A stretch of DNA of 64,000 bases. Source: Dryococelus australis. Its lineage: Eukaryota > Arthropoda > Insecta > Phasmatodea > Phasmatidae. The notes beneath the pieces were generated by a model, which worked only from the letters and a program-made list of their open reading frames with translations, was not told the DNA's origin and made no database searches. Both the position numbers and the translations under genes were made by a program. Shown one piece after another: positions 4,274 through 42,899 of the stretch. Location of the stretch: positions 43,978,556 to 44,042,555 of the forward strand of contig CM057006.1 in the NCBI GenBank assembly GCA_029891345.1, given 5' to 3'. Every line of letters begins with the position of its first letter. The first letter of the stretch is position 1.

Positions 4274-4279
4274 GTTGGG
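4274..4279. repeat. Left target-site duplication of the Polinton
   Basis: GTTGGG directly precedes the 5'-AG of the element. GTTGGA directly follows the other end at 28242. Six-bp duplications are the rule for Polintons; five of six bases still match. Confidence 0.75.
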
Positions 4280-4423
4280 AGTAGTAGGGGCGGAGGCGTT
4301 CTACCCCACATTTTTTTACCTTGACCTTTCAGATGTAGTCCCATAAGATTAACTTAGGGCCGAAATCGCTGGAAATCCTAGGCCACCTGCTCGGCGATCT
4401 GCTCCACAATTAGCTCTGCACTT

Positions 4424-4443
4424 AGCTCCGCAATTGCGGAGCT
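4424..4443. promoter_or_regulatory. 20-bp perfect palindrome in an AGCTCC repeat cluster
   Basis: AGCTCCGCAATTGCGGAGCT is self-complementary over 20 bp and is surrounded by five or more AGCTCC words between about 4398 and 4495. The same palindrome is conserved at 28084-28103 in the other terminal repeat. A binding site for an element protein is possible but is inference. Confidence 0.5.
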
Positions 4444-4900
4444 GTAATTGTGTCCACAACTAGCTCCACAGTCAGCTCCGCACTCGGCTCCACATACTCC
4501 AACCCCTTAACCTACATACACCCCTACCCCCTCCTCACCTACCCTTCTTCACAAGATGCTATACCAGGTTTATCTACACATGAGGTCTGATACACTATCA
4601 CCCCTCTCCCCTGCCTACACCCCCACCACTCATCATCCTCCTCTCATCAGATATGGTTAACACCCTCCCCACACCTCCCCAACACTCCTTCCCAGCGAGG
4701 TAGGCTGTCTTCAGTTCCAAACTTGACAGGTAGGCAGCACTGCTATTGTCATCATAGGCCACCGCCCTAGTTGTAGAGTTGACCACCAGGAGCGCTGATG
4801 TCTCTTGATGCCATCATTGGCTTGTAGGTAGTGCACACGTTCTTGCAATGCCTGCCAGAGTGTGGGCGAGTCGCTCACGCTCCAAGAGCCAATCTTGGTA

Positions 4901-5334
4901 TAGGTGGTTCATGGTAAAATGAGCACTTTTGAAAATGCTGCTTAAGATCTACTTGTGTAAATGTTGTATATTCCCCATCTTATGTAGAATTTAACATTGC
5001 CATGGGCCTCGTAACTTTATTCATCCGTCGGTCAAATAAAACACTAAAATTATTAAGAAAGTAAATACTTTCCAAATATGTTAATCTTTACACTTCGATG
5101 AATTAAAAAAAAAACAAAGTGAAAGAAATAATTTCTAGTCATCATGAATGGTTACCTAACACTTTTTATTCGATGTTAGGATGTTAGGATATGGTACTAC
5201 TTTCCATCAATCATTACCAACTTTACTGTTTGAATGTCACTCAGTGCACCCATTAAAATGTATATGTGCATAGGAACAGTGAATATTTTCTAAGGTTCAT
5301 TTCTAAAGTGCTCACTTTATCATGAACAACCTTA
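4901..5334. mobile_element. MITE family 1, full copy inserted in the left Polinton repeat
   Basis: Ends are TAGGTGGTTCATGGTAAAAT on the left and, inverted, AAGGTTGTTCATGATAAAGT on the right, both followed by GAGCACTTT. It is flanked by TA. The right Polinton arm has the uninterrupted sequence (CTTTGTAATGTTATT on its inverted strand), which proves insertion and a TA target. Non-coding; its transposase source is not in the window, though TA targets fit Tc1/mariner-type mobilisation. Confidence 0.88.
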
Positions 5335-5449
5335 AATGTTATTAATAACTCAGATAGGCTGGAAGCTTAAAACAATTCTCTCCACCATATATATAATGCA
5401 GAAGTACATATTAAAATAACTCTTTCTTTGTATGGTCGTGAACTGGGGA

Positions 5450-5984
5450 ACCTCAGTTCCATTACAAGATGCCTTTACTTTCTTGACCATGAGAGCTTAG
5501 ATCCCAATAAAAGTTTAAATGTTGTATTTAGAAAACGAATCACACATACTAACTCGCACATTTAAAACAAAGTCATAATAAAGCAATAAATCATAATTTT
5601 ATAAAATAAAACCTCAGGAATTTATATTAATATATGCATTTTAAATTTTAAAATGTTCAAACATGCATGTATGAAGCGATATATTCACGAATTTGTACTT
5701 TAAAGGAGATTTAGTTTAGAGACTCACAACAGAAAAATATTCAAAATGTAATTTTTTTTACAAAAAAAGTTATCAATTAATTATTTTTTTCAAAACAATC
5801 AACCGAGTGACATATCAAAGATTTCGTATTTATTAGACACTTAATAATTTATCGATAGAAAGAATGATTATGTAACTATAACCATCGCCACCTTGAATTT
5901 AAGTAAGCATAGAAGCATTTTTTACTTTTAAATTAATTATGTAACTGCTCCGAACATCAAATAGAACACATTGTTTACCTTTCA
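5450..5984. other. Polinton subterminal region, no gene
   Basis: Very AT-rich sequence between the terminal repeat and the tandem repeats. No open frame of interest. Confidence 0.5.
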
Positions 5985-6765
5985 ACAGGTCATTTAAGTC
6001 CTTTTATAAACATAGTCAAAATTTCCGATCCATTGATGCTATGGTCATCAAATTCATAACAGTCATAATACCCGACATACAACAATGGTTAGGTCATTTA
6101 GGTCCTAAACCCTTTCTGACAAAAGTTTAATTCGAGTTAAGCCCTTTTATAAGCATAGTTACTCATAATTTCCGAAATATTAATGTTATGGTTATCAAAT
6201 TCATAACATAGACACCATACCCAACATACACCATAATTCTAAGATCATTTAAGCCTTAAAGCCTTTCTGACAATGTCAAACACACCTAAAACCCTTTTAC
6301 AAGCATACTAACTAATAATTTCCCATCTACCAAACCTACAAACATCAAATTCATAACACACACACATCAACCCCAACAATAAACACGACTACAAGATCAA
6401 ATACACCTAAAGATGTTTATAAACAGAGTAACTTATAATTTCTCGTATACCAAATCTACAATCATAAAATTCATAACATACACATAAAGCACAACAACAA
6501 ACAAAAATGCAAGGGCAAACACATCTAAACCCCTTTTATAAGCATAGGTACTTATAATTTCCCATATACCAAAGCTACAAACATCAAATTCATAACACAC
6601 ACAACTCCAACAATAAACAAGACTATAAGGTCAAACACACTTAAAGCCATTTTATAAGCATACCCATAAATCAAAGCTACAATTATCAAATTCATAATAT
6701 ACACATCAAACCCAACAACAAAGAAGACTACAAGGTCAATCACAACTTAAAACCTTTTGTAAGTA
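5985..6765. repeat. Diverged tandem repeats of about 100-150 bp, about six copies
   Basis: The phrase CTTTTATAAGCATAG, then ATAATTTCC, then ATCAAATTCATAA recurs with spacings of roughly 145, 150, 118, 120 and 100 bp. Copies near 6540-6760 are the most alike. The long open frames across it follow from the repeat period and are not considered coding. Confidence 0.75.
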
Positions 6766-7901
6766 TATTTAAGCATAAACATATCAAATGTGTACTCATC
6801 AAAGACATTTACCAAAGTAATATTTATTCTATTCGATTTGAACAGATTTTATTTTTGAGTTCGATACCTGCTTAGAGCAATTAATGTAATGATAGTTCTG
6901 GATTATCAAGTTAGAGTCTCAGTCGGAACACCTAATATTATTTTATATCCGAATTTAACCAAAATTGAGGCTTGCTTTGTATTCCTGCTTATAGTAATTA
7001 ATGTAATGCTATTTTTTGATTACAGAGATGGATTCCCAAGCGACTCACTTAACAGTTATAAAATAATTTTGGGAAATGTCATCTTAAACATTCACTTATG
7101 CTCGATGTCTATCATATTACGCGATTGGTGTATACTGCTCAACTAATGTATTACATGTTCGATATCAACTGTTGAAGGTCGAGAGTGGTAGAGAGAATGC
7201 AGTTATATGATGTAATCGTTTAAATAACAAAATAGGGAAAATCCATACTTGCATAAACATGCGATCAAAATTTACTAGGGATGCACGTACACACATGAAT
7301 AATTAGAAACTAAACATTCACCAAAGTAATATATCATCTCAGCAAAACAGCCAAACTTCAACTGCTATATACCTTTTCATTTGTTTCAGATTTTGCAATA
7401 ATTATAATTATTTCATTATTATTTAGGGATGGAAGGTATTGCATTTACACTATGCTAGCATTCATTATACATACTTATCAACCATGCACATTATATGTAG
7501 AGAGACATATGTCCGCTCCCAAGAAACGACATCTCAAGACTAAAGCCTTACCATAAACATATTATCCATAGGTTATTCATGCTTTACTCCTAGCAGGTCA
7601 ATGCACCCTAACAGGAAGAAATGCGTATACGATTTCATCATATACCAACACACAGACAGAATATCTTCAATTAATTACTTTGATAAACCATTTCATCATA
7701 TGATAGCAAAACACACACCCAGACACAGAATAACACAAATTCACACACACGAAAAAACCTCAAATATTCCAATTTGCAAACCTGCTCCACCCAAGAATTG
7801 CTTCTAATGAACCAAATTAACCCAGATCAACCCAAAATTCACCCAAAATTACCAAAATCTACTCCAAAACACACACACTTACACATCTCATTTGCACATA
7901 A
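6766..7901. other. Polinton left subterminal region, no recognised gene
   Basis: AT-rich. Small open frames at 6889-7146 (+) and 7601-7807 (+) have no recognisable domain and low-complexity composition. Confidence 0.45.
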
Positions 7902-8465
7902 TTAGATTATATTACAGATCCTAGCAAAACTCAATAATCAGGCTAAAATTCAAGCAATTTCAAGCTAAATTCAAGCTAATTTCTAATTTCCTGTCAAATA
8001 TTTCGAAGTGCAATTCAAAATCAATCAAATTTAAGGCCAAAATCAAAATAAATTTTCAAGTTGTGTTCACTCGTTGCGAGGGTTTTTTTTAAAGCTTTAT
8101 TTGCAAGCTAAATTATAATATTTTTTATGAGATTCCAAGAATTTTCATACTTTTCTTGGGATATTTTTTTGACTAATTGATTTAGCTTGCAAATTTAGAA
8201 TAAATTTTGCCTTTTTGACCTAAATTTAGCCTCATTCACTCCCGAGATGGACACTGATCAAAGAGTGAACGAAGCACGTTTTTTAAAAAAGTGTGCCTGA
8301 TTAGGAATGCAGATTTGGATCAAATTTGCTTGATTTTGGGGGTGAAATTGAAAAGATGAATGTTTTCAGAAGAAATTTTAAAAAAAGTTGCTTGAAAATG
8401 AAAAATTTGCTTGAATTTTAGTCAAATTATTGAGTTGAGCCAAGATCTGCAATAGACATCTACTG
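7902..8465. repeat. Foldback repeat, copy A
   Basis: About 560 bp with imperfect inverted ends: it ends GATCTGCAATAGACATCTAC and starts with a decayed inverse, TAGATTATATTACAGATCC. Inner inverted pairs (GCAAGCTAAATTA with GATTTAGCTTGC) give a fold-back structure. A second copy lies at 23827-24372 in the same orientation. No coding capacity. Confidence 0.8.
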
Positions 8466-8679
8466 ATTTATAAAAAAAAGTTTACGTATAAACACAACAG
8501 CACCCTTTAAAAAAATGCTCAAATAAAATTGGCACAAATAAAGTTGAAAGAAGAAATCTCACCTAGATTTCACAAAAATATTTTTTATTCGATCAATCAC
8601 CTTAACAGTACATCTAAAAATTTGTATTAAAATATCGAAACAGTTTCTTGTTTCTGTAAAACCATTTACATCCTCCATT

Positions 8680-10008
8680 TAATAAAATAAAAAAAATATA
8701 CATATCATTAGTAATCTGTTCTTTCATATAATCATGAGTTAAATTCCATTGGCCAGTTAAAATAACATTACAAATTGTATGTGCGTCAACAGCTTCATAA
8801 AATCAACACTAATTTTTGTATTTTTTAAATTTAACTACAGTTGTTTTTCTATATAAGCAATCAACAATATACAAAGGCCTTCGACCCCAAAATGAATAAC
8901 AATTGGTTTTACCATCAGAGTTTAGAACCACCTTATAATAAAGTTAATTATTTCTATATACAGCAGCGAGTTTTATTTTAGAAGTTTGAAAATCGTACAA
9001 GCAAGAAATGCCTTATCACAAAAATTATTGCCAATATCTAGATTCCAATTTTCTTTTGAAAAAATTTCATTTCTGCCATTTTTAACACAAATATTTTTCA
9101 CATTAAATGGTCAAACATAGAAGTATGGACATACTGTTCAGCACGATTTTTTCTATTAGTTTCAAACCCAACAATTACAAAATCAGGCATGTCAAACTGT
9201 AAATTATTAAACTGATCTTTTACATCAAAGTTAAAAACAGTTGTATCAGTAGGAACTTCTTTTTATAAAAATTGCCAATAATCAAAACTAATATGTATTT
9301 TTGGTTCTTTGTTTATTTTTTTTAATTGCAATGGCAGTGTTAGCTTCATATTCATAGGTCACATATTCATATTCATATGTCACATAATTTCTTATTTTTG
9401 AATAACAATTTTACCTGGATCAGCATTATCTCTATCAAGTATACCATCTGCTTTCTTATTTTGAAAGACAAATAAAAAGTTGTTATCTGATGAATTACGA
9501 ATAAAAGTAATTTTATAACCATCTTTCCAATAAATTTAATTGTTATCTCGAATAAAACCAAACAGATATTGGATAAATTGTTTCATTTAGTTTACCATTA
9601 CGAGTATCTTTTATTCGATAATAATCATTAACACAAGATAATTCAAAATAATTTAGTTCGCCTGGAGATCATAACAAAATATTCATCACTGTCGAAGTTA
9701 TATCCAGATTATAACTAGCCTCAATAACATGTCAATATTTTGAGATTTCTACTCAGGAAAACCGAAAAGGAAAAAAGTTAGAACAAATATCAATGTTATC
9801 TAACTTATCATAGTTTTCCGCATCTCCAACTTTATCTCTCTTTTGTAATCTAAATTGTTCATAAACATATGCATCATTTGGAAAAGAAAAGCCATCTCCT
9901 ATAGGACTATCAAACTCAATTCTATTTTTGTAAACATTTAAATTCCCCCTAGTTTGATCAGTTGGGGGGAAAGTGTGTCTCGAAACTCTCAATACTTTTA
10001 TAATTCAT
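8680..10008 (-). pseudogene. Probable Polinton capsid protein (major capsid candidate), decayed
   Basis: A minus-strand ATG at 10008 opens a short frame (SIESFETHFPP). After a frameshift in the C-run near 9962 it continues in the frame with NLNVYKNRIEFDS and DAYVYEQFRLQKRDKVGDA down to FFPFRFS. Stops and frame changes follow, with further coding-like blocks (NYFELSCVNDYYRIKD, near 9650; CYSFWGRRPLYIVDC, near 8880; DAHTICNVILTGQWNL, near 8780). About 430 residues are traceable. It lies next to the other virion-type genes on the opposite strand. The block order fits a large structural protein of insect Polintons that I recall but cannot name with certainty, so the capsid assignment rests mainly on size and neighbourhood. 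It is clearly inactivated. Confidence 0.4.
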
Positions 10009-10096
10009 TTACAAGAAAAAAAATTATATATAAATGAAAGATTCAAAGGATATTTCTCGAGTTAAATAACTCATCGACAGGTTCAAAAATTATAAA

Positions 10097-11008
10097 ATGC
10101 ACCACGAAGTGGAATATGATAGAAATAAGAAAAAAGAGCTGCCATTGATTGATGAATTACGAAATATTGGCAAGAAAGTAGAATGAGTAAGTGAAGAAAA
10201 CAAAAATTTAATAAACACACTTGTTCCTGTTGCAGCAAAAAATTTATGTTATCCACTAACTCCAGAGGAAACATCGTTTGTAAGAGATTTATTCCCGAAA
10301 TCACCTAATATGGATGTTACTCCATTAAAATATTTGCCACCCATAGCCGGTGTTTCTACCACAAATCTCGGAATAGAAATTGCAAAAAGAATTAATTTTA
10401 TAAATTAAAAATATGGTTTACGTGGAGTTGGGGAAGATTTTTATATTGGTGGTACAAAAGAAACATTAAATAAAAATACACTATTTGTTAAGGATAAAGA
10501 ATATAATTTAACACCAGGACTTTGTAATTTGTTAACAGAAAAACAATCAGATCTTGAGGGTAAATACACTACTAATGACATTAAAGAATACACATAAATT
10601 GTTTTATTAACCAATGATTTATTTCAAAATTATATTCCTAATCAGAACAGAAATAATCCATGTTCAAGTAGTGGTCGGAAATACAAAAAAAACAATTAGT
10701 TCGATTTTAGCATAGGCAACTTTGAGGATTTTATAGATGATTTTAAATCTGGAGGCAAGGCATAAAAAAAATACAACAATTTGCCAAAAGAATATATTTG
10801 GATGGATGATGATAGAAACTTAATTCATAGATTGTTAGATATTCATGGCGAAGAAACTGCTGGAAATAAAAATTATTACAATGAAAAAATAAGTGTAATG
10901 AATATGTTAAACAATAAATTTTCTGATTTTGTTGTTAATAACCAGAAAGGGATTCCATATGTAATAAGAGTTTTAAATGTAATTCCACCCTCATTTTGTA
11001 ATTATTAA
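10097..11008 (+). pseudogene. Uncharacterised conserved Polinton protein, decayed
   Basis: From ATG 10097 the frame runs through MHHEVEYDRNKKRAAI, then with several stops and frame changes through YGLRGVGEDFYIGG, NTLFVKDKEYNLTPGL and the tail PKEYIWMDDDRNLIHR to a stop at 11006-11008. The G-x-R...YIG...KDKEY..T.GL pattern with a serine/glycine-rich stretch (PCSSSGRKY) recalls a protein common beside capsid and protease genes in insect Polintons. Its function is unknown to me. The stop at its end separates it from the phospholipase-like frame a few bases downstream, so the two may be consecutive genes or once one reading frame. Roughly 300 codons. Confidence 0.5.
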
Positions 11009-11011
11009 CAC

Positions 11012-11326
11012 CATGGAAAAGGTGTGATAAACTCGGCATTAAACAATTTAAATTTACCCGAATTGCATTTGCCTGGTTATAATTATTGCATGCCATTCAG
11101 AAAATTCAATGAAATATTAGAAATAGGAGACTCAGGAATAAATAAATTAGATGGGGCCTGCAAATATCACTATATTGCATATAGCGATCATAAATATTTA
11201 AAATCTAGACGTGAAGCTGATAAAATTTTACAAAAAGAAGCTATAGAAATTATGTTAGATAAAAATACTCCGACTGGAGAAAAAATTGCTTCTGCTGCTT
11301 TTGCTCAACAATGTTTACATAAATAA
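11012..11326 (+). pseudogene. Phospholipase A2-like protein with damaged active site
   Basis: The frame contains ELHLPGYNYC, then GDSGINKLDGACKYHYIAYS and SRREADKILQKEA. This is the layout of the virion phospholipase A2 domain known from parvoviral VP1 and from insect virus-like elements, used to breach endosomal membranes during entry: a calcium loop, a helix with the catalytic His-Asp pair, and a second helix. Here the calcium-loop glycines are replaced (YCMPFRK) and the catalytic Asp is Tyr (KYHYIAY), so hydrolysis is not expected. The frame itself is open for about 100 codons, longer than its neighbours, and stops at 11324-11326. It sits between the uncharacterised gene and the core-like and protease remnants on the same strand. 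Confidence 0.72.
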
Positions 11327-11448
11327 AATCAGGTTGGGGAATTAAAATGTTTTATTGAATATATAGAAAATTAAAAGAAGACAAAAGTTTCTTACTAGCT
11401 TGATCAATACCAATATCCCCAAAAAAAAAATACTAAAAGAAAAACAGG

Positions 11449-11640
11449 AAGTGGTTTACACCATGGAGGATTTTTACCAACTTTATTTGCAGTTTTAGGT
11501 GCGCTCGGTGCTTTAGCTGGAGGAGCTATTGCAGTTTATAATTCTGTTGGAAAAAAAAACACATAAAAATAATTAGAAGAACAACAAATACACAATTTAG
11601 CAATGGAAAATAAAAATGAAAGTGTGACGATCTACCTAAT
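11449..11640 (+). pseudogene. Hydrophobic core-like (adenovirus pX-like) small protein remnant
   Basis: The frame gives GSGLHHGGFLPTLFAVLGAL, then a glycine/alanine-rich membrane-type helix (about 25 residues), two stops after VGKKNT, and LEEQQIHNLAMENK. Short proteins with GG-F-LP-x-L, a glycine-zipper helix and a tail ending HN-x-AM are regular partners of the protease gene in Polintons and related viruses, where they are thought to be minor virion or core components. The family assignment is by motif only. The C-terminal part abuts the protease remnant. Confidence 0.5.
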
Positions 11641-11803
11641 AGAATGCACAAAAATGAATGTGCTGTGGTAAATTTATATATTTGAACCAATCCTGGTACT
11701 CATTGGGTTTGCTATTTTAAAGAAAACAATGATGTTTACCATTTCGACCATTTTGATTCAGTTATTTGTGGACATAAATGTTCATTTGTTTTATATCTAT
11801 AAT
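11641..11803 (+). pseudogene. Adenain-like cysteine protease remnant with an internal deletion
   Basis: The frame reads KNECAVVNL, a TGA stop, then GTHWVCYFKENN, YHFDHFDS and finally ICGHKCSFVLYL with a stop at 11801-11803. GTHWV supplies the catalytic His of the Ulp1/adenain fold, FD.FDS follows the usual acidic residue, and CGHKC looks like the segment around the catalytic Cys. Adenain-type proteases mature capsids; in intact members these blocks lie farther apart, and the N-terminal part is longer, so this copy has lost sequence as well as gaining a stop. It is inactive. Confidence 0.72.
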
Positions 11804-11844
11804 TTTAAGTTTAATGAAATAATTCTTTTTTTATTTTCTTAATA

Positions 11845-12081
11845 ATGGATATATTAGGGAAACCACTAATCAAATCTTTAAATAAAATTTTTGACACTAG
11901 TGTTTATGCTTGAAAATCATATGTAGATTCACAATGCAATTTGAGTGTTTCTTCTCTACAAAGCGAACTATCCAACTGTTTTGATTACACAAAATCATAT
12001 GTTTCTTTTCTAGGATATAGACGTGTTAATATAGGTGAACCTGTAGATAATAAAGATGCAGCCAATAAAAGATATTTCGAG

Positions 12082-12148
<67 letters not shown>

Positions 12149-12778
12149 TTCTGCATTAAAAAGGGATGTAGATTCGAAATATAAAACTATTATATCTGAT
12201 TATGATCTAAAAGAAAATACAAATTTACAATTCAGTAATACTATTGCTGATTGTATAAAACGAATAAATAATGCGAACAAACATTAAAAAAGGGTGTAGA
12301 TTCGAAATATAAAACTATTATTTCTGATTATGCCTTAAAAACCGATGTCGAATCAAAATACAATACTAGTGCTTCTAATTTAAAAACATATTTAGATTCA
12401 AAATATAATACCATCGTTTCTGCTTTACAATATTAACTTAGTAAAGATTTTGTTCATACACCATACTATGTTTCTATTCAAATTCGTAGAATTAATAATA
12501 TAGCTGATCCTGTAGATGGCAAAGATGCTGTCAATACAATATATTTTGATGAAAAATCGCAAAATTTAAACAAATTAGTTTTGAATTGCTGTCATACACT
12601 TGTTAACACAAAAGTAAAAAAAAAAAAAACTAAAGAAGACTCCAATAGTTACAAAATTAAAACCAATCAGTATAAAAATTCAAGGAAGGAAAATTTCATA
12701 CATTTTATTTATGTGGAACCTGGAATGAAAATAATAATGTTTTTCGCATTGACGATGATGTAAATTTATTTTCTTTTT
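11845..12778 (+). pseudogene. Fibre-like protein with repeated 'N-x-x-x-P-V-D-x-x-D-A' motifs, decayed
   Basis: ATG 11845 opens MDILGKPLIKSLNKIFDTS. Coding-like blocks follow: SELSNCFDYTKSYVSF, RRVNIGEPVDNKDAANKRYF (near 12025-12080), repeated LDSKYNTIVSA-type units (12300-12430), and RRINNIADPVDGKDAVN (near 12490-12540). The G/ADPVDxKDAxNxxYx motif recurs in tail- and fibre-type proteins, where it sits between coiled-coil stretches; a host-attachment role is known for such fibres in viruses and is inferred here. The gene is split by a (TA)n expansion at 12083-12144, by the loss of frame after it, and by stops. Confidence 0.55.
12083..12144. repeat. (TA)n microsatellite inside the fibre gene
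   Basis: About 30 uninterrupted TA units directly after the codons for NKRYF. It shifts or destroys the reading frame, so the expansion post-dates the functional gene. Confidence 0.9.
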
Positions 12779-12929
12779 AATGGATTATACTATTTATAAA
12801 ACAATTTTTGATCATTTATCTCATGACACTAACTCATATTAAGGGAACTTCAAAAATAGATTATAGTAATTCTTTTGATGTTACCAGAGGTGAGTTTCTA
12901 ACTATTAAAAATTAAAAAAATAACTCATC

Positions 12930-13063
12930 TAATTATTTTGTTGATGTTCTATCTTTAATTGATATTGCAAATGCAAATTTAGAAAAATCGTCAATAATTT
13001 GTATAACATATTTGAAACCATTGTTGATATTTAATATGCCTTTTAAATTTCCGGTATCCATCT
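12930..13063 (-). pseudogene. Retroviral-type integrase core fragment
   Basis: From about 13060 the minus strand encodes MDTGNLKGILNINNGFKYVI followed by QIIDDFSKFAFAISIKDR, then a stop. This matches the first two beta strands of the rve integrase core: the first catalytic Asp lies in MDTGNL, and IDDFSKFAF is the usual second strand. The rest of the core, with the second Asp and the Glu, was not found downstream. Integrase is the enzyme that inserts Polintons and makes 6-bp duplications. The fragment directly abuts an unrelated coding fragment (13064-13251), so a deletion junction near 13063 is likely. Confidence 0.68.
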
Positions 13064-13251
13064 CTTATACATTTAAAATTTAATTGGATCTCTATATACT
13101 TTTGTCTTTCTATTTCATAACTAAGATTTCTATCTTTATGGTTAAATTCATCACACTAAATAGCTAATTTTTTACTGTTGAAAATTTAAATTATTTAAAT
13201 CAAATAATGTAGTGTTATCTTCTAGTTGTTTGTCAAGTGATTCGGCCATTT
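13064..13251 (-). pseudogene. N-terminal and nuclease-like fragment beginning MAESLDKQ
   Basis: ATG 13251 (minus) opens [20 protein letters not shown] and stops after 25 codons. In another frame KLAI-stop-CDEFNHKDRNLSYEIERQ and KYIEIQLNFKCIRD follow. The pattern hydrophobic-E/stop-CDE.NH.DR...YE.ERQ..IE..L recalls the C-terminal endonuclease-like domain that accompanies BRO/KilA-type proteins in insect elements, which would agree with the BRO array nearby. The fragment is cut off by the integrase piece. Assignment is tentative. Confidence 0.4.
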
Positions 13252-13267
13252 TGTAAGTAGGAAATCT

Positions 13268-13338
<71 letters not shown>

Positions 13339-13368
13339 CAGATTTCCTACTTACAAAATGGCCGAATC
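13239..13368. repeat. Palindrome 1: 33-bp arms around a (TA)n core
   Basis: The left arm GATTCGGCCATTTTGTAAGT continues with AGGAAATCTGTTT. After about 70 bp of TA repeats, the right arm is the exact inverse, ending ACAAAATGGCCGAATC. The arms include the start codon and first codons of the MAES fragment, so this is an inverted duplication of a gene start and its leader. Confidence 0.9.
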
Positions 13369-13369
13369 A

Positions 13370-13527
<158 letters not shown>

Positions 13528-14460: not shown

Positions 14461-14518
14461 GGCGAGTTGTAATGCGTGTTTTTGTATATATTCTTTTTTA
14501 TTAAGAAAAAGAAAAATT

Positions 14519-15500: not shown

Positions 15501-15699
15501 AAGTGTTTTATATATATTCTTTTTTATAAAGAAAATGAAAAATTGAAGATTTCCATTTATAAAATATAGACAATATTCATTGATAAATACACCAGATTTT
15601 TCATTACCTTTGATGGTGAACTCCCAGTTCACCTTTAATACATTTTGTACTCAACTTCTCCAAAGGTTGGGACCCAATTCTGGACGCACACAAAAATTC

Positions 15700-15852: not shown

Positions 15853-15978
15853 AGCAGTCTATATTTAAGCCTCATCTGCAGGCTAAATCATGTTATCTCG
15901 ATAAAATTTCAACACCAAATTTTTCTTCTTCTTAATAAATTTTTTCTTTCTAGATAACACAAAACAAAAAAAAAAAAA

Positions 15979-16973: not shown

Positions 16974-16984
16974 AATTTTACTAG

Positions 16985-17230
16985 GCGATCATTCAACCAA
17001 GACATGCTTTGTATGCAATGAGAATAACCCTATCTAATCTTATGCCGCATAAAAACACAATAGGAGGGCATTTTAACACTTGCAAAAAATGTTATACCGA
17101 ATATGCCAAACAACATTATGAGTCGAAAATGAGAAAGTACAAAGTGAATGCGGAAAATATGTATATAACCATCCTCTAAAAAAGTATAAAATAGTAAATC
17201 ACACATTACAGCAATATATATTCTAAGTGA
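16985..17230 (+). pseudogene. Zinc-ribbon protein, degenerate tandem copy 2
   Basis: Repeats the layout of copy 1: TCFVCNENNP (near 17005-17030), GGHFNTCKKCYTEYAKQHYE (near 17067-17125), SECGKYVYNHPLKKYK (near 17145-17190). Several frame changes and stops. Adjacent and in the same direction, so a tandem duplication. Confidence 0.5.
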
Positions 17231-17365
17231 AACTTCATAAATTTTTATTATAATAAAATGTATTGTATATAAATATGGCGACATTCAATCTAGCGGCCGA
17301 GTTCAGAGAAAAGAGATTGCGCAAGTTGAGAATAAAAATATAATATTTTTATAAATTACATAAAG

Positions 17366-20300
17366 ATGATCTTATTTGCAAATATTATTCAAGCAAGAAA
17401 ATATAAATGTAAAAATCCTATCGTCAATCTAAATGATTTAACAGTTGCGGAATTAAGAACTAAAGCTAAAAGCTTTAACATAAATAATATATATATATAT
17501 AATTTAAGAAAAACTGATTTAATTACAGCTTTTACACCACTAATTATTGATGAACAAAGAAAAAGAAACTTTGCAAATTTACCTTTTCCAAATGGCAAAA
17601 TAGTATATAGAAAAGCCAAGAAGTATTTAAAAGAAATTGTCCCTCTTTCCACTAAAGTATAGGTGAACAACAAAAATAGAAAATCCAATAAAACCTTTGC
17701 TGTCGAAAAAGCTTTAAAATGCAGGTTATCAGCATATAACATTGAAAATAATTTTAATGTAGTTTTGCCCAGGAATTTTTTAATTTCAGTAAAAAAACAT
17801 GTGTTTAAGATATCATGTGATCAACTTATAAAACTTAGATTTGTGAAATCTAACATTAAACTTGTCGCCCATTTTCGAAGGCGGTAAACTCATGAGATAC
17901 AAATACTTGACGACAGTCAATCACACACATTTACAATATTGAACGAAAGAGACATTAAAAATATTTACAAACAAACAAAAGAAGAAATACTCGCATGAAT
18001 AGAAAACATTGAAAGAAGTAATTCAGATTGGGCTTTACATAGCATAGTTGGATTGCAACTAGCCATAAACAAGTATAATCCATTAGATGGAGCATCTGAT
18101 ATTGAACTACCAGAAGTGATTAAGAATAAAAAAGCATGCATCAATGTGAAGAATGATGACCAAAAATGTTTTCTTTGGGCAATAAAATCTGCACTATTAC
18201 CTGCTGAAAAAACCACCCACAAAGAGTATCGAAATATCAAAATGTGGTACTTAACATTGACAAAGCATTAGATAAATTGGATAAATATGAATATCCCATA
18301 AAAATTGACGATATACCAAAAATAGAAAACCAAATTGATGTCTCTATAAATGTATACTCTATTGATGACAAGTTTAGTGAATATCCACTAAATCTTACAA
18401 AAAGTAAAAAGGACAAACACATAAATTTACTTTATTTTAAAAAATGATACAAACTCGCATTACTGTTGGATTAGATATTTATCTAAATTGCTTTCAGCAC
18501 ATAAAAATTAGCACCAAAGTAAAATTTATATATGTGAGAGGTGTCTTCAATGTTATTACTCCCAAGAGAAATTAAATAAACACACAGAAGATTGTTTTAA
18601 AAATGAACCAGTAAAAATTCAATTACCTTCCAAAGGCAAATAAATAAATTATAAAACTATTAAACTTTCTACGAAAGTTCCTTTCGCAATATATTTAGAT
18701 TTTGAATCAATTCTAAAGAAAATATCAACAACTAAACAAAATCCAAACGAAATAAAAATTTTTTAATTAATCCAAAAATATCCTGTTTTAACAGGTGATA
18801 TCGATAATGGTATTTACAAGATGGTGCTCAAAGAAAGATATAATCTTACTAATGATCAAATAAATAACATTGATTTAAAGGTGAATGATGCATCATACAC
18901 AATGAAATATCAGCTACACGAAGCTTCTAGTTTTTGCTATTATATTGTATCTGATTATGGTGATGTTAAGCCACCAGTTGTATATCGAGGTCTATTTGCA
19001 CATGAAAATGTTATACAATCAATTAAAAGGGAAGTAGAAGAAAGTGGGGAAAAATATTCATAAATCGAAGCAATGCATCGATTAACAAAAGAAGAAATGT
19101 CAGCACACAACAAATCTAGAAAATGCACTGTATGCAAATGTTAATATACGAAGGAAAATAAAAAAAGTGTGCCACCACGATCAAATATCTGGAAAATTTA
19201 TTAACCTAACATGCAACAATTGTAATCTACAAGTAAATATGCCCAATTTTGTTCCAATTTATTTTCATAACTTAGCTGGATATGATGCTCACTTGTTCAT
19301 TAAAGAGCTAGGTTATGATGGAAAAAATATACAGATTTACTTGCGAATAACGATGAAAAGTTTATCACTTCTGGGAAAGAAACAGAAAATTAAAAAATGA
19401 TGTTTATAGACATTCAAATATATGGCAAGTAGTTTAGATAAATTATCGTCTAATCTAACTAAAGTACAAATTAAACATACATGAAAACATTTTCCAAGAG
19501 ATAATGTGCATTCAGTTTTCAGGAAAGGTGTTTACCCATACAATTATATGGATAGTTTTAAAAAAATTAACGAAACTCAACTTCCACCAAAGAGTGATTT
19601 TTATAGTAAATTAAATGAATCTGACATATCTGATGAAGATTATGTGCATGCAAGAAATATGTGGAATCAATTTAATATATAAATATTTGTGAGTATAATG
19701 ATTTATATTTAAAAAGTGATGTACTGTAGTTGACAGACATGTTTGAAAATTTGAGATATACATGTATAAATGCATATTGTCTAGACCCTGTGTGGTATTT
19801 TACAGCACCAGGTTTATCTTGGGGTGCAAAGTTAAAAATGACTAAACAACCACTAGATTTATTTATTACATGATCACGACATGATTTTAATGATAGAAAA
19901 AGTTATATGATTTGGAATTTCACTATGCTGTAAGCGATATGTTAAACCAAATAACAAATATTTGGAAGATTTCAATTCAAATCAAGAATCAAATTATTTA
20001 GCTTATCTCGATGCAAATAATTTATATGGTTGGGTAATGTCTTAATATTTACCATATGGAAGTTTCGATTGGGTTTACTATACAGTATATGATTTAGATT
20101 ACTGGAGTGAAAAAATGTTAAACTTGAAAGACGATTCTGAGAATGGTTATATATTATAAGTTGATTTAGAGTGTCCGCAGAAGCTACATAATTTACACAA
20201 AGATATTCCTTTTTGCCCAGAAAATAAGGTAGTTCCAGGAACATATTATTCTAAACTATTAACAACTTTACACATCAAAGAAAAGTATGTACTGCACTAT

Positions 20301-21180
20301 CGTAGTTTAAAACAGTGCCTAAATGATGGATTGAAGCTTACGAAAATACATAGAATATTGAAGTTTAATCAGTCTGATTGGTTAAAAAAAAAAGTATATA
20401 GATTTTAATACATTGATGAGAACTAATGCAAAAAATTATTTTGAAAAAGATTTTTTTTCAAACTGATGAATAATTCTGCGTTTTGTAAAACAATGGAAAA
20501 TATCAGAAACAGAGTAGATATAAGACTGGTTTCAAGTGAAAACATATGCGAAAAATAAGTTGCTAAACCCAATTTCAAAAGGACTATATTTAATAAGAAT
20601 CTTGCAGCCATTCACATGAATAAAGCGAATGTAAAATTTAATAAGCCTATTTACATTGGCATGTCAATTTTAGATATATAGAAAGAATTGATGTATGACT
20701 TCCATTATGAAGTTATGAAAGCCAGATATGGAGATAAAATTTAATGTGCATTCAAGATACTGATAGCTATATATATAACATTAAAACAGATTTTTTTATG
20801 AAGACATGAAGATGATGTTAGATGAATTTGACACAAATAATTATCAAATGACAATATTTATAACATGTTACAAATAAAAAAAAGTAAAATAATTTTTAGA
20901 ATATGTTGGTCTAAGAGCAAAAATGTTTTCATATAGCATTGAGGGTAAAGAAAACAAAAGATCGAAAGGTGTGAAAAAATGTGTAGTCAATAATAGAATT
21001 ACAGTTTGATGAGTTTGATGATAAAATCCAATATAGAACAATAAGTTTAATATAGAAAGAGGAAACACAAAACATATACAGTCGAAGTTAGTAAAATTGC
21101 TTTAAGTCATTGTGATAAAAAGAGAATTATACTATAAAATAAAATAGAGACACTGCCATATGGGTATCGAAATTTATAAT
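17366..21180 (+). pseudogene. Protein-primed family B DNA polymerase of the Polinton, decayed
   Basis: Order of blocks: a SAP-like motif (DLTVAELRTKAKSFNINNIY, 17428-17495); an N-terminal domain with LPEVIKNKKACINVKNDDQK and CFLWAIKSALLP (18100-18200); EYPLNLTKSKKDKHINLLYF (18380-18440); a zinc-type block and exonuclease motif (FVPIYFHNLAGYDAHLFIKE, 19250-19310); YLKSDVL with DMFENLRYTC and AYCLDPVWYFTAPGLSWGAK (19700-19840); motif A YLDANNLYGW (20004-20033); motif B NSAFCKTMENIRNRVDIR (20470-20525); motif C DTDS (20756-20767); and C-terminal YTVEVSKIALSHCDKKRI. A polymerase of about 1,250 residues would replicate the element, primed by a terminal protein. Many stops and frame switches make it non-functional. 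It is the largest gene of the element and on the same strand as the ATPase. Confidence 0.92.
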
Positions 21181-21289
21181 TTTATTAATGAGAGGTGATG
21201 TCCATTTTGGATACAGATTATTTCTGAAAGAAAACTTTTTTATTTTATGTACCTCTTAAGAGGGTCTATAGCACAGGCCCTGTTGAAAT

Positions 21290-22075
21290 TTTCTAATAAA
21301 ATTTACCGCCATCTTGAAGACAGGGTTTAAAACTTCCAAGCTAGTTTTGTCTTCAGATTTCAAACTTCTTTAATCTCCAAAACAATGTCGTTTTCAGAAC
21401 CATCGAAATCAATTAATCAAGCATTTTCATCTCTAATTTCTAAAACAATGTGATTAAACAGCTCATTATTTATTTGATAAAAATCGGATATGGGGTCTCA
21501 TAGTTAATATAATCTACAGAACATTGTTTTTCGTGGAAAAACTATCAATTATATCCATTTCTAAGTGATTAGATTCATCATATTTTATAAACACACCATA
21601 TACTCAATTACACTGGACATTTGTTTTAATTGGATTAAAATTAGGCAATTTAGTACCACTGACACATTTGTCTTTTTCAATAGTCATATTCATTTCAAAG
21701 CCAAGAAATTCAGATAAGTGATCATTAAGTTTAATATCAAACTTAGTTTTAATCATTATTCTTTTTTTCACACTGTCTGTGGTTATTTCAATGTTATTTG
21801 TGGAAAATGGATCATTGAATTCATAATTTCCTTTAAAGAATCGAAATCCTATTGACCTTTGGGAATTGTTATAACTTCGTTTTTATCAACCACAACAAAC
21901 ATTTTTTCCATTGTAGTAATAGCATTGTTGTCTATATTTGGTGTTAAAAATTTTATGTTGAAACTAATCAATGCTATAGATTAAACTTTATGAATTATAT
22001 CATAGCGAAGCTTCATCTTAAGAATGGAACCATTATCTGTTAACTTGAATACTTTACTATCAATTTATTACAAAA
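21290..22075 (-). pseudogene. Polinton structural-type protein ('LGF' family; minor capsid candidate), decayed
   Basis: The minus strand gives FKLTDNGSILKMKLRYDIIH, then IALISFNIKFLTPNIDNN, MEKMFVVVDKNEVITIPKG (21910-21850), and after a frame change FKGNYEFNDPFSTNNIEITT and IMIKTKFDIKLNDHLSEFLG with FEMNMTIEKD, then KLPNFNPIKTNVQCN. The order (aliphatic start with ALI.F....PNI, ITIPKG, then ..L.FLGFE and ..NF.PI) is that of a beta-rich protein widespread in animal Polintons that I believe to be a minor virion protein; that role is inference. Stops after VQCN and further on break it. It lies head to head with the ATPase, starting about 15 bp away. Confidence 0.5.
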
Positions 22076-22088
22076 GTGATATTAAATT

Positions 22089-22760
22089 ATGAAAGTCGAT
22101 TGGGGTGTTGGTGTTTTAATTTCTGAAGGAGGTGCTAAAAATGGCGGACTTTTGCCTGATGATATTAGGGGTATAATTAAAGGCCCAATCAATTGAGGAA
22201 TGATCAATTTAATGATCAATTTAATTTATAAAACAGGTTGGTTAAATTTGAATAAATTGTATGTTTGTTAAAAAAAGTTTGAATCAACACAAATATATTC
22301 AGTTACAAGATAACTTTGATGTGGTATCCAGCAAGTTTAATGAAAATATGGCATACTTTTTTCGTAATACTGAGGAAATGATTCTACTAGACTAATGTGA
22401 AAACAAGTCTCTAGTTATTTTTGATGATGTAATTTTTTATGAACAAAATGTAGTACACTAATATTTTACTAGAGGGAGACATAAAAATATCGATGTATTT
22501 TTATCTTACACAGACATATTTGAGAGTTTCCAAACAATTGGTACGAGACAATTAAATATTTCTACTTATATTTAGACAAGATAACACAAACCTCAAACAT
22601 ATCTATTGCAATTTTGTTGGTGGGGACATGTCATATGAGAAATTTAAAGAGATTTGTACAAAGTGCTGGGATGAAAATTATGTTTTTTTTTTTTAACATT
22701 AGATTTGAGTACAAAAATATACAGTGGTAAGTACAGAAACCAGATCTAACATTTTATAAC
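22089..22760 (+). pseudogene. FtsK/A32-type packaging ATPase, decayed with lost P-loop
   Basis: ATG 22089 opens a frame with GLLPDDIRGIIKGPIN, then TGA, then GMINLMINLIYKTGWLNLNK. This is the Walker A region of the A32/FtsK-like DNA-packaging ATPase, but the Gly-Lys-Ser/Thr core is gone (22178-22200). After frame changes come Walker B KSLVIFDDVIF (22408-22440), a family-specific YFTRGRHKNIDVFLSY block (22461-22510), IYCNFVGGDMSYEKFKEICT (near 22600-22660) and a final LDLSTKIYSGKYRNQ. ATPases of this family pump viral genomes into capsids. The order and spacing are normal; the P-loop loss and stops make it inactive. It follows the polymerase with the inverted structural gene in between. Confidence 0.85.
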
Positions 22761-23520
22761 ATAAAAGTTTGCCTGGTGTACGTGTTTTACATACACTTAA
22801 AACATTATATGTTATAAAACTGTTTTCAGTAACTACAATCCTTGTATATAAGTTTTAACTGTTTCAAAGCTTCGAATCTATTTGAAGCATATGAGTGCCT
22901 TATCTACTTCGAAAAACTGCCACACACTCTTGTAGTAATAGGACAAAGTTTATCTGTACACTCGTGCATGCCCAACCACAGCAAACTCTGTTTGCAATAG
23001 AAAGTATGTAATCACACAACTGTGCTAATATCTACTCGACCTGCAGTGAACTCATGGTGAGCACGATAACAGACTTCAGCTCACCACATCTTACCTCATG
23101 TAGACTTTTAATTGTCACCTCGCTCGCTCGACCACCATGGCTCATTAGTTGCGAGTTTGTCTTGACAATCAAGATTCAGGTGTCGACTCCCGGTTGAGAG
23201 GTTAATTTAATGATGCGAATACATGGTGCCCATATTTGCATTGTTAAATTATCACCAAGACATTCCAAATTTGAGCAAAAAACACTTTGTTGCTCTTGTT
23301 CATATATTCAGTATATGAGTACTGATGCAAAAGATTTTGTACTTCTTAATCTCAAACCCAAAAAGCATGCTCTCTATGATATACTGTATTATATCAGATG
23401 TATAGGGTGGAGTGATTCATATAGTGGAAGATGCCCCATTATATGACTCAAGAGAACCATAAGAAATAAAAAAAAAATTTTAAAAATAAAAATTGAAAAC
23501 CCCTCAATTTACCACTAAAG

Positions 23521-23558
<38 letters not shown>

Positions 23559-23826
23559 AGCCAGTGGTGAAGTGAGGGGTTTCTCCAATTGGAGTTTTAT
23601 TGGTGCTAAATAAGGCCAGATAAATAAAAAAATTCAGTCACTGGCATTGGCATTAACTTGCTCACAAACCTTTTATAGTTGTTAAGAATGTTGAGTATGA
23701 GGGAAAACATTTGCCCATATAGAATTCTGAGCAGTGCTGAAGTGTTATCAAGATAAGATGATTTAACTTGCTTGAATTTACAAAAGGGGTAATTGTGTGT
23801 TATATGTAAACATTTTTTATAAATTC
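22761..23826. other. Polinton right interior, no recognised gene; (TA)n at about 23525-23556
   Basis: An open frame at 23210-23446 (+) has no recognisable domain. Two Cys (CCSC) and a tyrosine-rich tail give no family. A short (TA)n tract lies near 23525-23556. Confidence 0.45.
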
Positions 23827-24372
23827 AGTAGATGTCTATTGCAGATCCTCATGCAACTCAATAATTAGGTTAAAATTCAAACAAATGTATAATTTCCTTT
23901 CAAATCTTTCAAAGTACAACTCAAAATCAATCAAATTTAAGGCCAAAATCCAAATAAATTTTAAACTTATATTCACTCTTTGTGAGGTGTTCTTGTAGCC
24001 TCATTTGCAAGCTAACTCATCATATTCTTGAGGAAATCCCAAGAATTTTCATACTTTTCTTGCGATATTTTTTTTGACAATTGATTTAGCTTGTAAATTT
24101 AGAGTAAACTTAGCCTTTCTTGACCTAAATATAGCCTCATTCATTCCCGAGAAGGACATTGATAAAAGAGTGAACAAAGCATGTTTTAAAAAAGTGTGCC
24201 TTATTGAGAATGCAGATTTGGATCAAATTACTTGATATTGGGAGTTAAATTGAAGAGATGAATAAGGTTTTCAGTGGAAATTGAAAAAAGTTGCTTGAGA
24301 GTGAGAAATTTGCTTGAATTTTAGTCAAATTGTTGATTTGTGCCAAGATCTGCAATATACATCTACTCACAT
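23827..24372. repeat. Foldback repeat, copy B
   Basis: Starts CAGTAGATGTCTATTGCAGA and ends with the near-inverse TCTGCAATATACATCTACT. Aligns along its whole length with 7902-8465 in the same orientation, including AATCAATCAAATTTAAGGCC and AAGAATTTTCATACTTTTCT. Copies differ by scattered substitutions and small gaps. Confidence 0.85.
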
Positions 24373-27320
24373 ATATCAGGAAACTGTAAAACTCCATACC
24401 ATCAAACTTTACAAACAAAACTAAATACTTCAGAACTATATCAACATATCACGCAACTCAAATGAAAAAGCATACAAAAACAGACACAATCATATTATGA
24501 AACCATTTCAAACTATAATACCAACAACATAACACCCAGTTGCAAAACCCCTAACATCAAACTTTACAATCAATACTAATTACTTAACAAGTAAATAAAT
24601 TCTATCATGCAACACAAATGAACAAATCTCCATCTTCTGTCTTCCAATACATATTATCACATACTTAATCTGAAGTATAACGATGTACAAAAAGAAAAAA
24701 AGTCTTACTAGGTTTCCATTTCTCGAATTTACATCAAAACATCAATTAAAACCAAATTATTATCGAAATAAAACACTCATCGTACTCAAATTGTGGTATC
24801 CCATACTACATATAGTAATCAAAACATGTTTACTACATAAAAATTCTATAATCAAAGAATGTTTGTTAAGATCTGCTCTTTTTAACACTTGATTCAATCC
24901 TTCTAGGAAACTTAGCTCTTATTTGCTTAGCAAGTATTTACACAATTAAACCTTCTTTCATCTCACAAGAAGCTTAAATTTTGTTTATATGTAACTATAT
25001 TTATCTACTCCGAAAAGGATAAAAATCATGCATATGTACTGATTTAGTCAATACTTCAACCTAAATGCAGGGCTTTATAGTTACACTAACATATTCTTTA
25101 TTTCAAATCCCAATGAGGTAAATACACATATATGAATTACTGTATGCGATATTTGTTTAAACACACTCACCTTAAACATTAAATATTAAATAATCCCTAA
25201 AAAAATATAATTGTTTATCTGTCTTAAGACATCATAAGTAATATATGTATATTCGCATAACAAAAATACATATTTAGCAAGAATATTTAGATATAAGTAA
25301 TATATACATAGCAATTCAAGAACCATTACTGGGTAAATAGATATTTATTTTAATCGAGTATTAAGTAAATTAACCAAAGTATTGGCATAATGAATATTCA
25401 ACTGCAAGTAGTATTGATCTAAGGAGTTGAAACAAAATACCCATCAACCGATGGGGGGGGGGGGGGACAAAAAAAAGAAAGTGAGTGCTTTATCTAGGAA
25501 GGATATGCAACCACAAACTGCATTACATATATATGTAATTAAAACTAAGTGTTATAAAAATATATATTTTTTAAAATTCATATGAGCATGTATGAAATTA
25601 CTACTCTACATATCATTCCTTATTCCTCAATCCTCAGTCATCAAATATCATTCCTTATTCCTCACAAATTCTTCCTTATTCTCCAAAGAACACATTTAAC
25701 AAGCTAACGCAATAGAACAAAACATAAATAGATATATTCCAACACACACCCACCCATGCACACACACACACACACATATGATATTCCATTTAGTAGAGAA
25801 CGTTTTCTATAATAAATACTTATGTTACACTCATCTCATCTCCTGCACAATATTCACTTACAAATTGAAATTTTGAAGTTTGCATTACATTGTAATAGTT
25901 TGATCCACTCATTTATTCAGACTTATATTTATAATAATTTCTTTAATTTTACATATCCTGATGTCAAAGCTTCATTTACAGAAACAGAGAGCTCATCATA
26001 TACAAAAAATCCGTATGCACACACACACACACACACACACACCATAAATCACACACATACACACCAATCTTTAACAATATTGCCAACAATCCTTACCAAC
26101 AATTTTCAACAATATTTACCAATCTAAGGGTTTATAAGCCTTCTCTATCCATACATATAAGAAAAATGTTTCACCTATTGTCTCCAAAAATTTATAAATA
26201 TCAGTAGAATAAATGTTTTTATAGACATTCAACAAGCCATACATTTTTATATTGAAGTCCTTATCATTTTCTTAACTTTTATAAGCATTTTCTCATAGCA
26301 ACACTTAAATTTGGAAGGGACAAAATGAATAAAAATAATTGTCTTTCATAAACTTTATCTTTATTTCACACAATTATAAAACAATACATAGTAATACGTA
26401 CATACACTCAATCATATTCTCATTTCAACCAAAGTATTTATGCTTTTCTCTCAATTTATACAACATTTCCTGCAGTAACCACTCAAGGTTTCCCTACTCA
26501 CATATACAACATTACAGTTAACACATGTATAGGTCTTATAACTAATTGCAAATGGGCAGTTATTACCTTAATGTTGTCTAGCGCTAAACTTTATCACAAA
26601 TATCTTGCTGCGATACTTGCATTCGCTTCCTGATGATCGACAAATATTATCTTTACACTTCTTATGTCTACATAGGATATCACTACAAGTAAACATAGCA
26701 TCAAACTTATCACAGTGGAACAATTAGTATGCTGAACTGGACAAAACATAACTACATTCATGTCAAAATACATGACAACTTATAGTAAAAGTATTTTGCA
26801 CAATAACAATATTGTTTCTGTATTGCTTCTAGAGACTCATCAGAAACCATTACTGAAGGTGTCACACATGGTAAGTCTTCAATCAGTGTTATCATCTCCA
26901 TATTACAAAAGTGTAAAATATCACTATATGACTCCACTTGTAACAATCCAAATTCCATCACAACCAACAAAGAAGTGAAAACATTCACACAAAACACACG
27001 ATTATATACTATTTTCACAACATAACAATTGTTTTATGTATCATTCAAACTTAGTCAGAGAAAGAGTCAACATTTACACTATCTTAATATATGCCTTTAA
27101 AAATTAACAATGCTCCCATACAGGGAAGCAGGGCTTAAATCTAACACCTTAAACCACTCATCCTAACCAACATTTGTAAAAAATGTTTTGTTATAATGAA
27201 AAGTGTTAACCGTTTCCTTGGTTAATATCATAAGATGATGGCATAGGATCATAAGCTAATACTCAAAATCTACTGTATTAAACAAAAAGAAACATAATTT
27301 CAGCAAAATAGTAATTTTAC
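24373..27320. other. Polinton right subterminal region, no recognised gene; CA and G tracts
   Basis: AT-rich, low-complexity DNA. (CA)n microsatellites near 25741-25776 and 26018-26042 and a G-run near 25453-25466. Open frames such as 25822-26127 (+) and 26758-27018 (-) are without recognisable domains and overlap simple repeats. Confidence 0.5.
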
Positions 27321-27324
27321 AGAA

Positions 27325-27540
27325 AAAATAATCACAAGACCTTCAACGTTGAGAACGCTTACAGCAACATCTGCAATGTTGCCTTCAATGCTGAGAACAT
27401 CTACTGAAACATAAGCCATGTTGCCTTCAACATTGAGAACATCTACAGCAATGTCTGCCACATTGCTGTCAATGTTGAGAACGTCTACAGCAACATCTGC
27501 CATGTTACCTTCCGAAGTTGAGAACATCATCAGCAATGTC
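27325..27540. repeat. Minisatellite, about five 42-bp units, bordering the right terminal repeat
   Basis: Unit AACATCTGCCATGTTGCCTT plus about 22 more bases recurs at 42-bp intervals. As 42 is divisible by three, an open frame (27300-27536, minus) with a 14-residue period runs through it (LNVEGNMADVAVDV repeated). It ends where the terminal repeat begins. Probably not a gene. Confidence 0.8.
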
Positions 27541-28241
27541 TGCCCAGTTCAAAACCATCCAAAAGGAAAGTTTTTTTTAAATATGTACTAATGCATTACA
27601 TATATGATGGAGAGAATTGTCTTAAGCTTCTAGCCAATCTCAGAGATCATAACAACATTTAATAACATTACAAAGATAGACTCTTGGAACGCGAGCGACT
27701 CGCCTGCTCTCTGGCAGGCATTTCGGCAACTTGTGTGCTATCTACCGGCCGATGACAGCATCAAGAGACATCAGCACTCCTGGTGGTCAAGTCTACAACT
27801 AGGATGATAGCCTATGATGACAGCAGTGCTGCCTATCTGTCAAGTTTGGAACTGAAGACAGCCTACCTCACCGGGAAATATTGCATGGGGTAGGTGTGGG
27901 GAGGGTGTTAACCATATCTGGGGAGATGAGGATGATGAAGAGAGGGGGTGTAGTTAGAGGAGAGGGGTGATAGTGTATCAGACTTCATGTGTAGATAACC
28001 CTGGTATAGCATGTTGTGAAGAAGGATGAGTAGGGGTGTATGTAGGTGAAGGGGTTGGAGTATGTGGAGCCGAGAATGGGATTAGCTCCGCAATTGCGGA
28101 GCTAACTGCGGAGCAGATTGCAGAGTAGGTGTCCTAGGATTTCCAACGATTTCGGCACTAGGTTAATCTTATGGTACTACATCTGAAAGATCAATGTCAA
28201 GGTAAAAAAAGGTGGGGTAGAACGCCCCCGCCCCTACTACT
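27541..28241 (-). repeat. Right terminal inverted repeat of the Polinton
   Basis: Inverse of 4280-5449 without the MITE, about 701 bp. Ends ...CCGCCCCTACTACT. Keeps the 20-bp palindrome (28084-28103) and the empty MITE target near 27660-27680. Confidence 0.92.
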
Positions 28242-28247
28242 GTTGGA
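28242..28247. repeat. Right target-site duplication of the Polinton
   Basis: GTTGGA, matching the left GTTGGG at five of six positions. Confidence 0.7.
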
Positions 28248-42893: not shown

Positions 42894-42899
42894 ACACAC

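Follow-up and report, generated by a model that had tools for sequence, protein, structure and literature searches.

We analysed a 64,000-bp stretch of the Dryococelus australis genome (GCA_029891345.1, contig CM057006.1, positions 43,978,556 to 44,042,555; hereafter referred to as the window) and found that it very probably contains two nested mobile elements, a 16.5-kb Polinton and an older, gene-less outer element that hosts it. The inner element occupies window positions 7901–24367 (16,467 bp, plus strand), and the outer element spans 4280–28241 (23,962 bp with the inner insert included). An earlier note made from the sequence alone had described positions 4274–28247 as a single whole Polinton. 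This description did not hold, as a second pair of ends with its own CACATA duplication lies inside.

The window was compared with 20 stretches of the same genome, which are referred to by L numbers. The inner element has a perfect CACATA on both sides (7895–7900 and 24368–24373, 6/6), and a perfect hexamer is expected by chance with a probability of 0.00024. In L030, L033, and L036, the sequence corresponding to window base 7900 runs straight into that corresponding to base 24373. The joined window flanks align continuously to all three with a single CACATA, so that these loci are paralogous empty sites. The perfect CACATA pair and the three uninterrupted relatives therefore place the boundaries of the inner element at 7901 and 24367. 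The search for related copies and empty sites suggested by the earlier note thus yielded both, namely copies of the inner and outer ends, and empty sites for the inner element.

The left end of the inner element is ATTAGATTATATTACAGATCC, and its right end, inverted, is AGTAGATGTATATTGCAGATC. All 40 scored genome candidates for the inner left end match (best 40 of 2,670 first candidates), 39 of them being other copies with 84–89% identity. Six further left ends were drawn from the 25 of these 39 copies whose match opens at query base 1–3. At the predicted base, all six open with A(G/T)TAGAT, and their flanks, inspected by eye, differ from those of the window and from each other. The left terminal region (7901–8513, plus strand) is composed of a unit with inverted ends (7903–8464) and an extension to 8513, and the right terminal region (23777–24367, minus strand) contains the second unit (23829–24367). 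The extension past the unit is inverted, with 8383–8513 pairing with 23910–23777, while the core of the right unit is direct with respect to the left unit. Other inner-end copies show weak inverted matches to the ends of the unit. This arrangement might derive from an inverted repeat in which recombination between the inverted ends of one unit turned that unit's core around. The GC content changes stepwise, from 38–40% in the flanks to 33–35% in the outer arms and 27% in the inner element. Long pure or near-pure (TA)n runs are located within the inner element at 12084–12144, 13271–13526, and 23525–23555, and one (TA)n run has 82-bp arms that are 99% complementary (13367–13530).

The outer ends begin with AGTAG, the left one reading AGTAGTAGGGGCG and the right one ending in CCTACTACT. 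They form an inverted pair with 621 and 573 bp aligned, the left terminal inverted repeat being located at 4280–4900 (plus strand; alignment of the arms and genome candidates) and the right one at 27669–28241 (minus strand; arm alignment). In this pair 505 of 565 ungapped columns are identical (89%), and the Kimura two-parameter divergence (K2P) is 0.115, with 35 transitions and 25 transversions. The alignment scores 718, whereas 50 shuffles of one arm scored 38 at most. The flanking hexamers GTTGGG (4274–4279) and GTTGGA (28242–28247) match at five of six positions, and a match of at least 5/6 has a chance probability of 0.0046. Hence, the earlier note was right about the 5'-AG ends, their spacing of 23,962 bp, and the arms, which align beyond scattered blocks. 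The terminal repeats it had put at 0.7 kb are present with a length of about 0.62 kb, and the flanks it had called a 6-bp duplication are real but match at 5/6.

Subtraction of the inner element and one hexamer from the outer length (23,962 − 16,467 − 6) gives 7,489 bp. L029 is a complete outer copy with a length of 7,483 bp; it lacks the gene block, has CCCGAC on both sides (6/6), and starts with GG, not AG, at its left end. All BLAST matches of L029 to 4280–28241 (E ≤ 1e-8) fall in the outer element. All 40 scored genome candidates for the outer left end match (best 40 of 1397), including the window's two ends. The left arm (4280–7894, plus strand) consists of the terminal inverted repeat and subterminal tandem repeats (6020–6662) and is gene-free as far as searched. 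So is the right arm (24374–28241, plus strand), according to Pfam, the relatives, and the paralogue gene pieces. No core Polinton genes were found between the outer element's own ends when paralogue gene pieces were compared with the outer arms and L029 was inspected. The tandem repeats have periods of 119–150 bp in the left arm (6020–6662) and 42 bp in the right arm (27340–27544). The same non-coding repeats occur in the left arms of L029, L033, L036, L038, L042, and L046, among others. The outer element shares with Polintons the 6-bp target-site duplication (5/6 in the window, 6/6 in L029) and the 5'-AG ends. It is Polinton-like in its ends alone and is not classed as a Polinton.

We then inspected which ends accompany the genes. 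Lists of gene places were built for the phospholipase A2 (PLA2), DNA polymerase B (polB), and BRO genes, with the best 150 scored from 15,107, 12,854, and 5,871 first candidates, respectively. For PLA2 and polB, every one of the 150 scored candidates matches, and the 150 for BRO gave 151 matches. A listed PLA2, BRO, or polB lies within 25 kb of nine of the other 39 inner-end copies. Their 11 placements all show the order and strand of the window: PLA2 at 3.4–4.5 kb on the same strand, BRO at 5.2–8.5 kb on the opposite strand, and polB at 10.6–12.5 kb on the same strand. About 0.26 such end-gene pairs per list set are expected by chance. None of the 38 other outer-end copies is near a listed PLA2, BRO, or polB, the lists being best-scored samples and not a census. 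Inner and outer ends less than 30 kb apart occur only in the window among the two end lists (best 40 each). In addition, 880 open pieces taken from polB loci and from the gene regions of paralogues were compared with both elements (E ≤ 1e-3): 169 have a match in the inner element, against three weak matches in the outer arms, one in the left and two in the right (15–30 residues, E 3e-4 to 7e-4).

Several observations weigh against this nested arrangement. L030, L033, and L036 each have three to four extra bases right after CACATAT that are absent from the window. The divergences of the two elements are alike, 0.115 for the outer ends and 0.100–0.126 for the inner units. The inner terminal units (ca. 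560 bp) are direct over their core (530 columns, K2P 0.126), inversion being limited to 59 outer-end and 107 inner-end columns. The agreement of the six further left ends from base 3 onward is partly due to selection, so that the switch to unlike flanks is the actual test. The gene lists contain best-scored places only, so that the count of none in 38 is a sample; the polB of L033 is itself missing from the list. Furthermore, two of the eight other outer copies that were compared over about 20 kb of their interior hold related gene DNA, at C4:137.82 Mb (L033/L034) and C8:59.02 Mb (L040/L041), at distances unlike those in the window; the other six hold none. Gene blocks are accordingly not rare near outer ends. 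The L033/L034 block sits at the window-equivalent position 25060 with a different gene order and is edged by other inverted repeats (L033:4680–4841 with L034:7345–7184, 83%). By BLAST, none of the window's BRO genes matches it. This block may represent another nesting, possibly of a third Polinton lineage in the same outer family. At C8:59.02 Mb, DNA of the polB-to-ATPase region (L041:7451–9876) lies about 17 kb inside the outer end.

The related gene DNA in two of eight outer copies, together with the Polinton-like ends and 6-bp duplications, would also suit an outer element that was once an autonomous Polinton and lost its genes by internal deletion, as opposed to a long-standing non-autonomous family. 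We regard such a loss as possible, yet short of an even chance: the gene-less form was itself amplified, as reflected by the non-coding repeats shared among many left arms, and the L033/L034 block has its own inverted repeats at both edges. It is unlikely that two direct, ca. 560-bp units resembling miniature inverted-repeat transposable elements captured the genes and moved with them as one composite. The units are indeed direct, have inverted ends of their own, and show weak inverted end matches at other copies. However, with the inverted extension (8383–8513/23910–23777) included, the end as a whole is an inverted repeat in which the core is flipped, and the nine of 39 unit copies with genes at the window's spacing are as expected for true termini. 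A single 24-kb Polinton, with the internal CACATA and repeat units arising by chance or as later repeats, was rejected as highly improbable on the empty sites and the end-gene distances: it agrees with the alignable outer arms, the 5/6 hexamers, and the gene DNA in two of eight outer copies, but a perfect duplication stands exactly where three relatives are contiguous, which refutes it unless the empty sites are excision products, the inner ends elsewhere keep a fixed distance to genes while no listed gene is near the 38 outer ends, and the L033/L034 block differs in position, order, and inverted ends.

The genes of the nested inner Polinton are decayed. Of 158 open pieces of at least 45 residues, 137 were run through Pfam; the remainder are 12 pieces in or beside terminal repeats, seven TA-repeat pieces, and two others. 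Among the 137 pieces, the models of polB, integrase, A32 ATPase, and adenain have no Pfam match at E ≤ 0.05. The polB remnant (17999–21170, plus strand) consists of 13 open pieces in three frames. By tblastn, its pieces at 17999–21006 match eight PF03175 loci, L001–L008 (best E = 2.9e-21), and paralogue pieces (L033 and L041) carry the polB map on to 21170. An IMG/VR search with a polB piece returned one locus with 19 residues matched. The integrase remnant (12888–13064, minus strand) has 52.5% amino acid identity over 59 columns to L034:1495–1881, which is an rve domain (PF00665, E = 1.7e-9). The earlier note had traced polB, integrase, ATPase, and protease here and had proposed a profile search. 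The first two were recovered through these less decayed paralogues, polB via the PF03175 loci and integrase via the PF00665 paralogue, with no profile match inside the window; the ATPase and protease are named from paralogue similarity and from motifs that we take to be diagnostic.

Specifically, the remnant at 11626–11931 (plus strand) has 48% amino acid identity to L034:3078–3491 (E = 1.7e-30), and we assume it to be an adenain-like cysteine protease from the motif order THW/FDSFG/CGH. It has no profile match, and a PDB sequence search gave no convincing match (best 0.34). Pieces of the remnant at 22155–22758 (plus strand) match L034:237–870 and L041. It has no profile match either, and from its motifs we take it to be an A32/FtsK-like packaging ATPase. 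Two decayed genes on the minus strand are candidates for capsid-like proteins. The first (8683–9980) is in several pieces with 54–86% amino acid identity to L034:5357–6742, and is presumed capsid-like by motif only; the second (21423–22061) matches L041:8761–9168 (E = 1.3e-33), and its capsid-like nature is likewise our assumption. A PDB sequence search with one capsid-candidate paralogue piece returned ribosomal uL23 proteins only (best 0.0017). The gene pieces at 10253–11351 (plus strand) include a parvovirus-type phospholipase A2 domain at 11009–11323 (PF08398, Phospholip_A2_4, E = 4.9e-10), for which the protein database search returned no homologues. The PLA2 is probably inactive, because its piece reads HY where we would expect the catalytic pair His-Asp of this enzyme type. 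A short Gly/Ala-rich piece (11437–11544, plus strand) matches L034:3667–3825, and we take it to resemble adenovirus pX/mu. The remnant at 11872–12556 (plus strand), matched by a paralogue piece, is a putative fibre-like repeat protein, and weak PHROG tail fibre matches were found at 12437–12760 (E = 4.4e-4) and 11914–12156 (E = 1e-3). The zinc-ribbon/endonuclease VII-like pieces (16719–17176, plus strand) have a paralogue match and a match to phrog_1035 (E = 8.4e-5) for 16719–16970, while 16985–17176 has no PHROG match.

Two BRO-family genes are located on the minus strand. Copy 1 (13633–14430, its extent taken from the duplication) has a Bro-N domain at 13996–14430 (PF02498, E = 8.9e-19). Copy 2 (14614–15378) has Bro-N at 15041–15378 (PF02498, E = 2.7e-5 and 1.5e-4) and DUF3627 at 14614–14799 (PF12299, E = 8.3e-7). 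They are tandem duplicates, 13500–14564 and 14515–15589 sharing 72% of nucleotides over 1.1 kb. The K2P of the BRO pair (0.196, 843 columns) is larger than the divergence of either element's ends. Eleven gene pieces compared with a paralogue have 134, 100, and 189 mismatches at the three codon positions, and this third-position excess is as expected for former coding sequence. Short-read polishing might correct long-read indel errors of the assembly (PMC10268593). Some frameshifts in the window may hence be assembly errors, but such errors would explain neither the 10% divergence of the ends nor the in-frame stops.

The published assembly has a size of 3.42 Gb, 17 major scaffolds, and an N50 of 262.27 Mb, and its report leaves 1.56 Gb of repeats unclassified, with neither Polinton nor Maverick in the main text (PMC10268593). 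Our lists share 3, 3, and 6 elements besides the window, excluding a polB–BRO pair 18 kb apart. For random samples, this overlap would give roughly 3,700–7,400 copies; the lists are not random, and a copy number in the thousands is a rough estimate. The match counts for PLA2, polB, and BRO among the scored candidates suggest that this Polinton family is very large. The gene order varies among its members. Among four PLA2–polB pairs, counting the window, the genes are arranged as in the window in two and convergently in the other two, as they are in L033/L034. BRO is placed as in the window in all four listed PLA2–BRO pairs (window included) and in seven of eight polB–BRO pairs, the eighth being the same-strand pair with the 18-kb spacing. 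A different arrangement is seen in one more BRO copy, which lies 6.9 kb 3' of a polB on the same strand. We rejected the possibility that the BRO genes are a private insertion of the window, as the BRO piece is widespread and mostly in the same relative place.

Polintons are 15–20 kb long (PMC4028283) and have a 6-bp target-site duplication (PMC10045372). The length of 16.5 kb falls in this range, whereas 24 kb lies outside it. The inner element has the duplication, the length, and, via paralogues, polB and rve integrase; it also shares putative protease- and ATPase-like genes with Polintons/Mavericks, and differs from them in the partly flipped terminal unit, the PLA2, and the two BRO genes. 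By predicted gene set, length, and duplication, it is an ordinary Polinton. It shares with Adintoviridae the animal association and the polB and integrase set. Adintoviruses have been defined with an OTU domain and a chromodomain (PMC11071296), on polB and integrase, respectively, and the pieces of these two genes are too decayed here for such a comparison. A figure legend names a parvovirus-type PLA2 domain in Polinton-related elements, fragments from T. castaneum and A. pisum included (PMC3671162); the setting is alike, and the element described here additionally has defined ends and a target duplication. Bro-N occurs in some polintons (PMC12721341), and as an accessory gene the BRO of this element resembles that of polintons and polinton-like viruses. 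It differs in that, in this insect lineage, BRO forms a tandem pair with DUF3627 whose usual place is between PLA2 and polB. Among non-autonomous elements with terminal inverted repeats or foldback-like structure, the outer element shares the long inverted arms, the tandem repeats, and the lack of genes, and differs in its Polinton-type 6-bp duplication and 5'-AG ends. No description of this element was found in the titles and abstract openings listed by searches of the open literature.

In the most likely course of events, a gene-less element of about 7.49 kb with 0.62-kb inverted ends (AGTAGTAGG) first entered GTTGG(G/A) with a 6-bp duplication, as shown by its ends, its relatives, and the complete copy L029. 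The 16.5-kb Polinton with AGTAGATG ends entered this element later; its target was CACATA, and the 6-bp duplication of this target and the three uninterrupted relatives attest to the event. From its gene content, the Polinton would have used its protein-primed polB for replication, its rve integrase for integration, and presumably its own ATPase, protease, and capsid proteins for packaging, and would afterwards have decayed to the present state, with polB in 13 pieces and three frames. Because it has no traced gene of its own, the outer element was most likely mobilised in trans, and its 5'-AG ends and 6-bp duplications suggest a Polinton-type integrase. The insertion order is derived from the empty sites, as divergence cannot separate the two insertions. 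The outer arms diverge from L033 and L036 by 0.11–0.14. At a rate of about 3e-9 substitutions per site per year, an insect value not measured in phasmids, the divergences correspond to near 20 million years.

A reading frame in the flank matches 18 proteins at E ≤ 0.001, all of them named as Dryococelus australis. Elsewhere in the window, Tc1/mariner-type transposase fragments (PF01498) are located at 31308–31553 (plus strand, E = 5.5e-10) and 58539–59114 (minus strand, E = 6e-8). At 52017–52310 (plus strand), a TNP-like GTP-binding insertion domain (PF21788, E = 1.1e-10) marks a transposase fragment that we presume to be P-element-like. Aside from these, there are a hAT transposase C-terminal fragment at 54982–55305 (minus strand, PF05699, E = 7.3e-8) and a 61-bp tandem repeat in five copies with 93% matches at 42892–43211.

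The corrected boundaries, 7901–24367, are usable as a reference for this lineage. The interval 4274–28247, which the earlier note had recommended for this use, would assign the genes ends that are not their own. Tentatively, the outer family could be a gene-less satellite of Polintons that relies on their protein-primed polymerase for copying and on a Polinton integrase for insertion in trans; such a satellite might have been amplified beside thousands of helper Polintons while acting as landing sites for them. The window and its three empty sites provide a double record of 6-bp integration in one genome, and demonstrate that nested elements with similar ends can pass for one.

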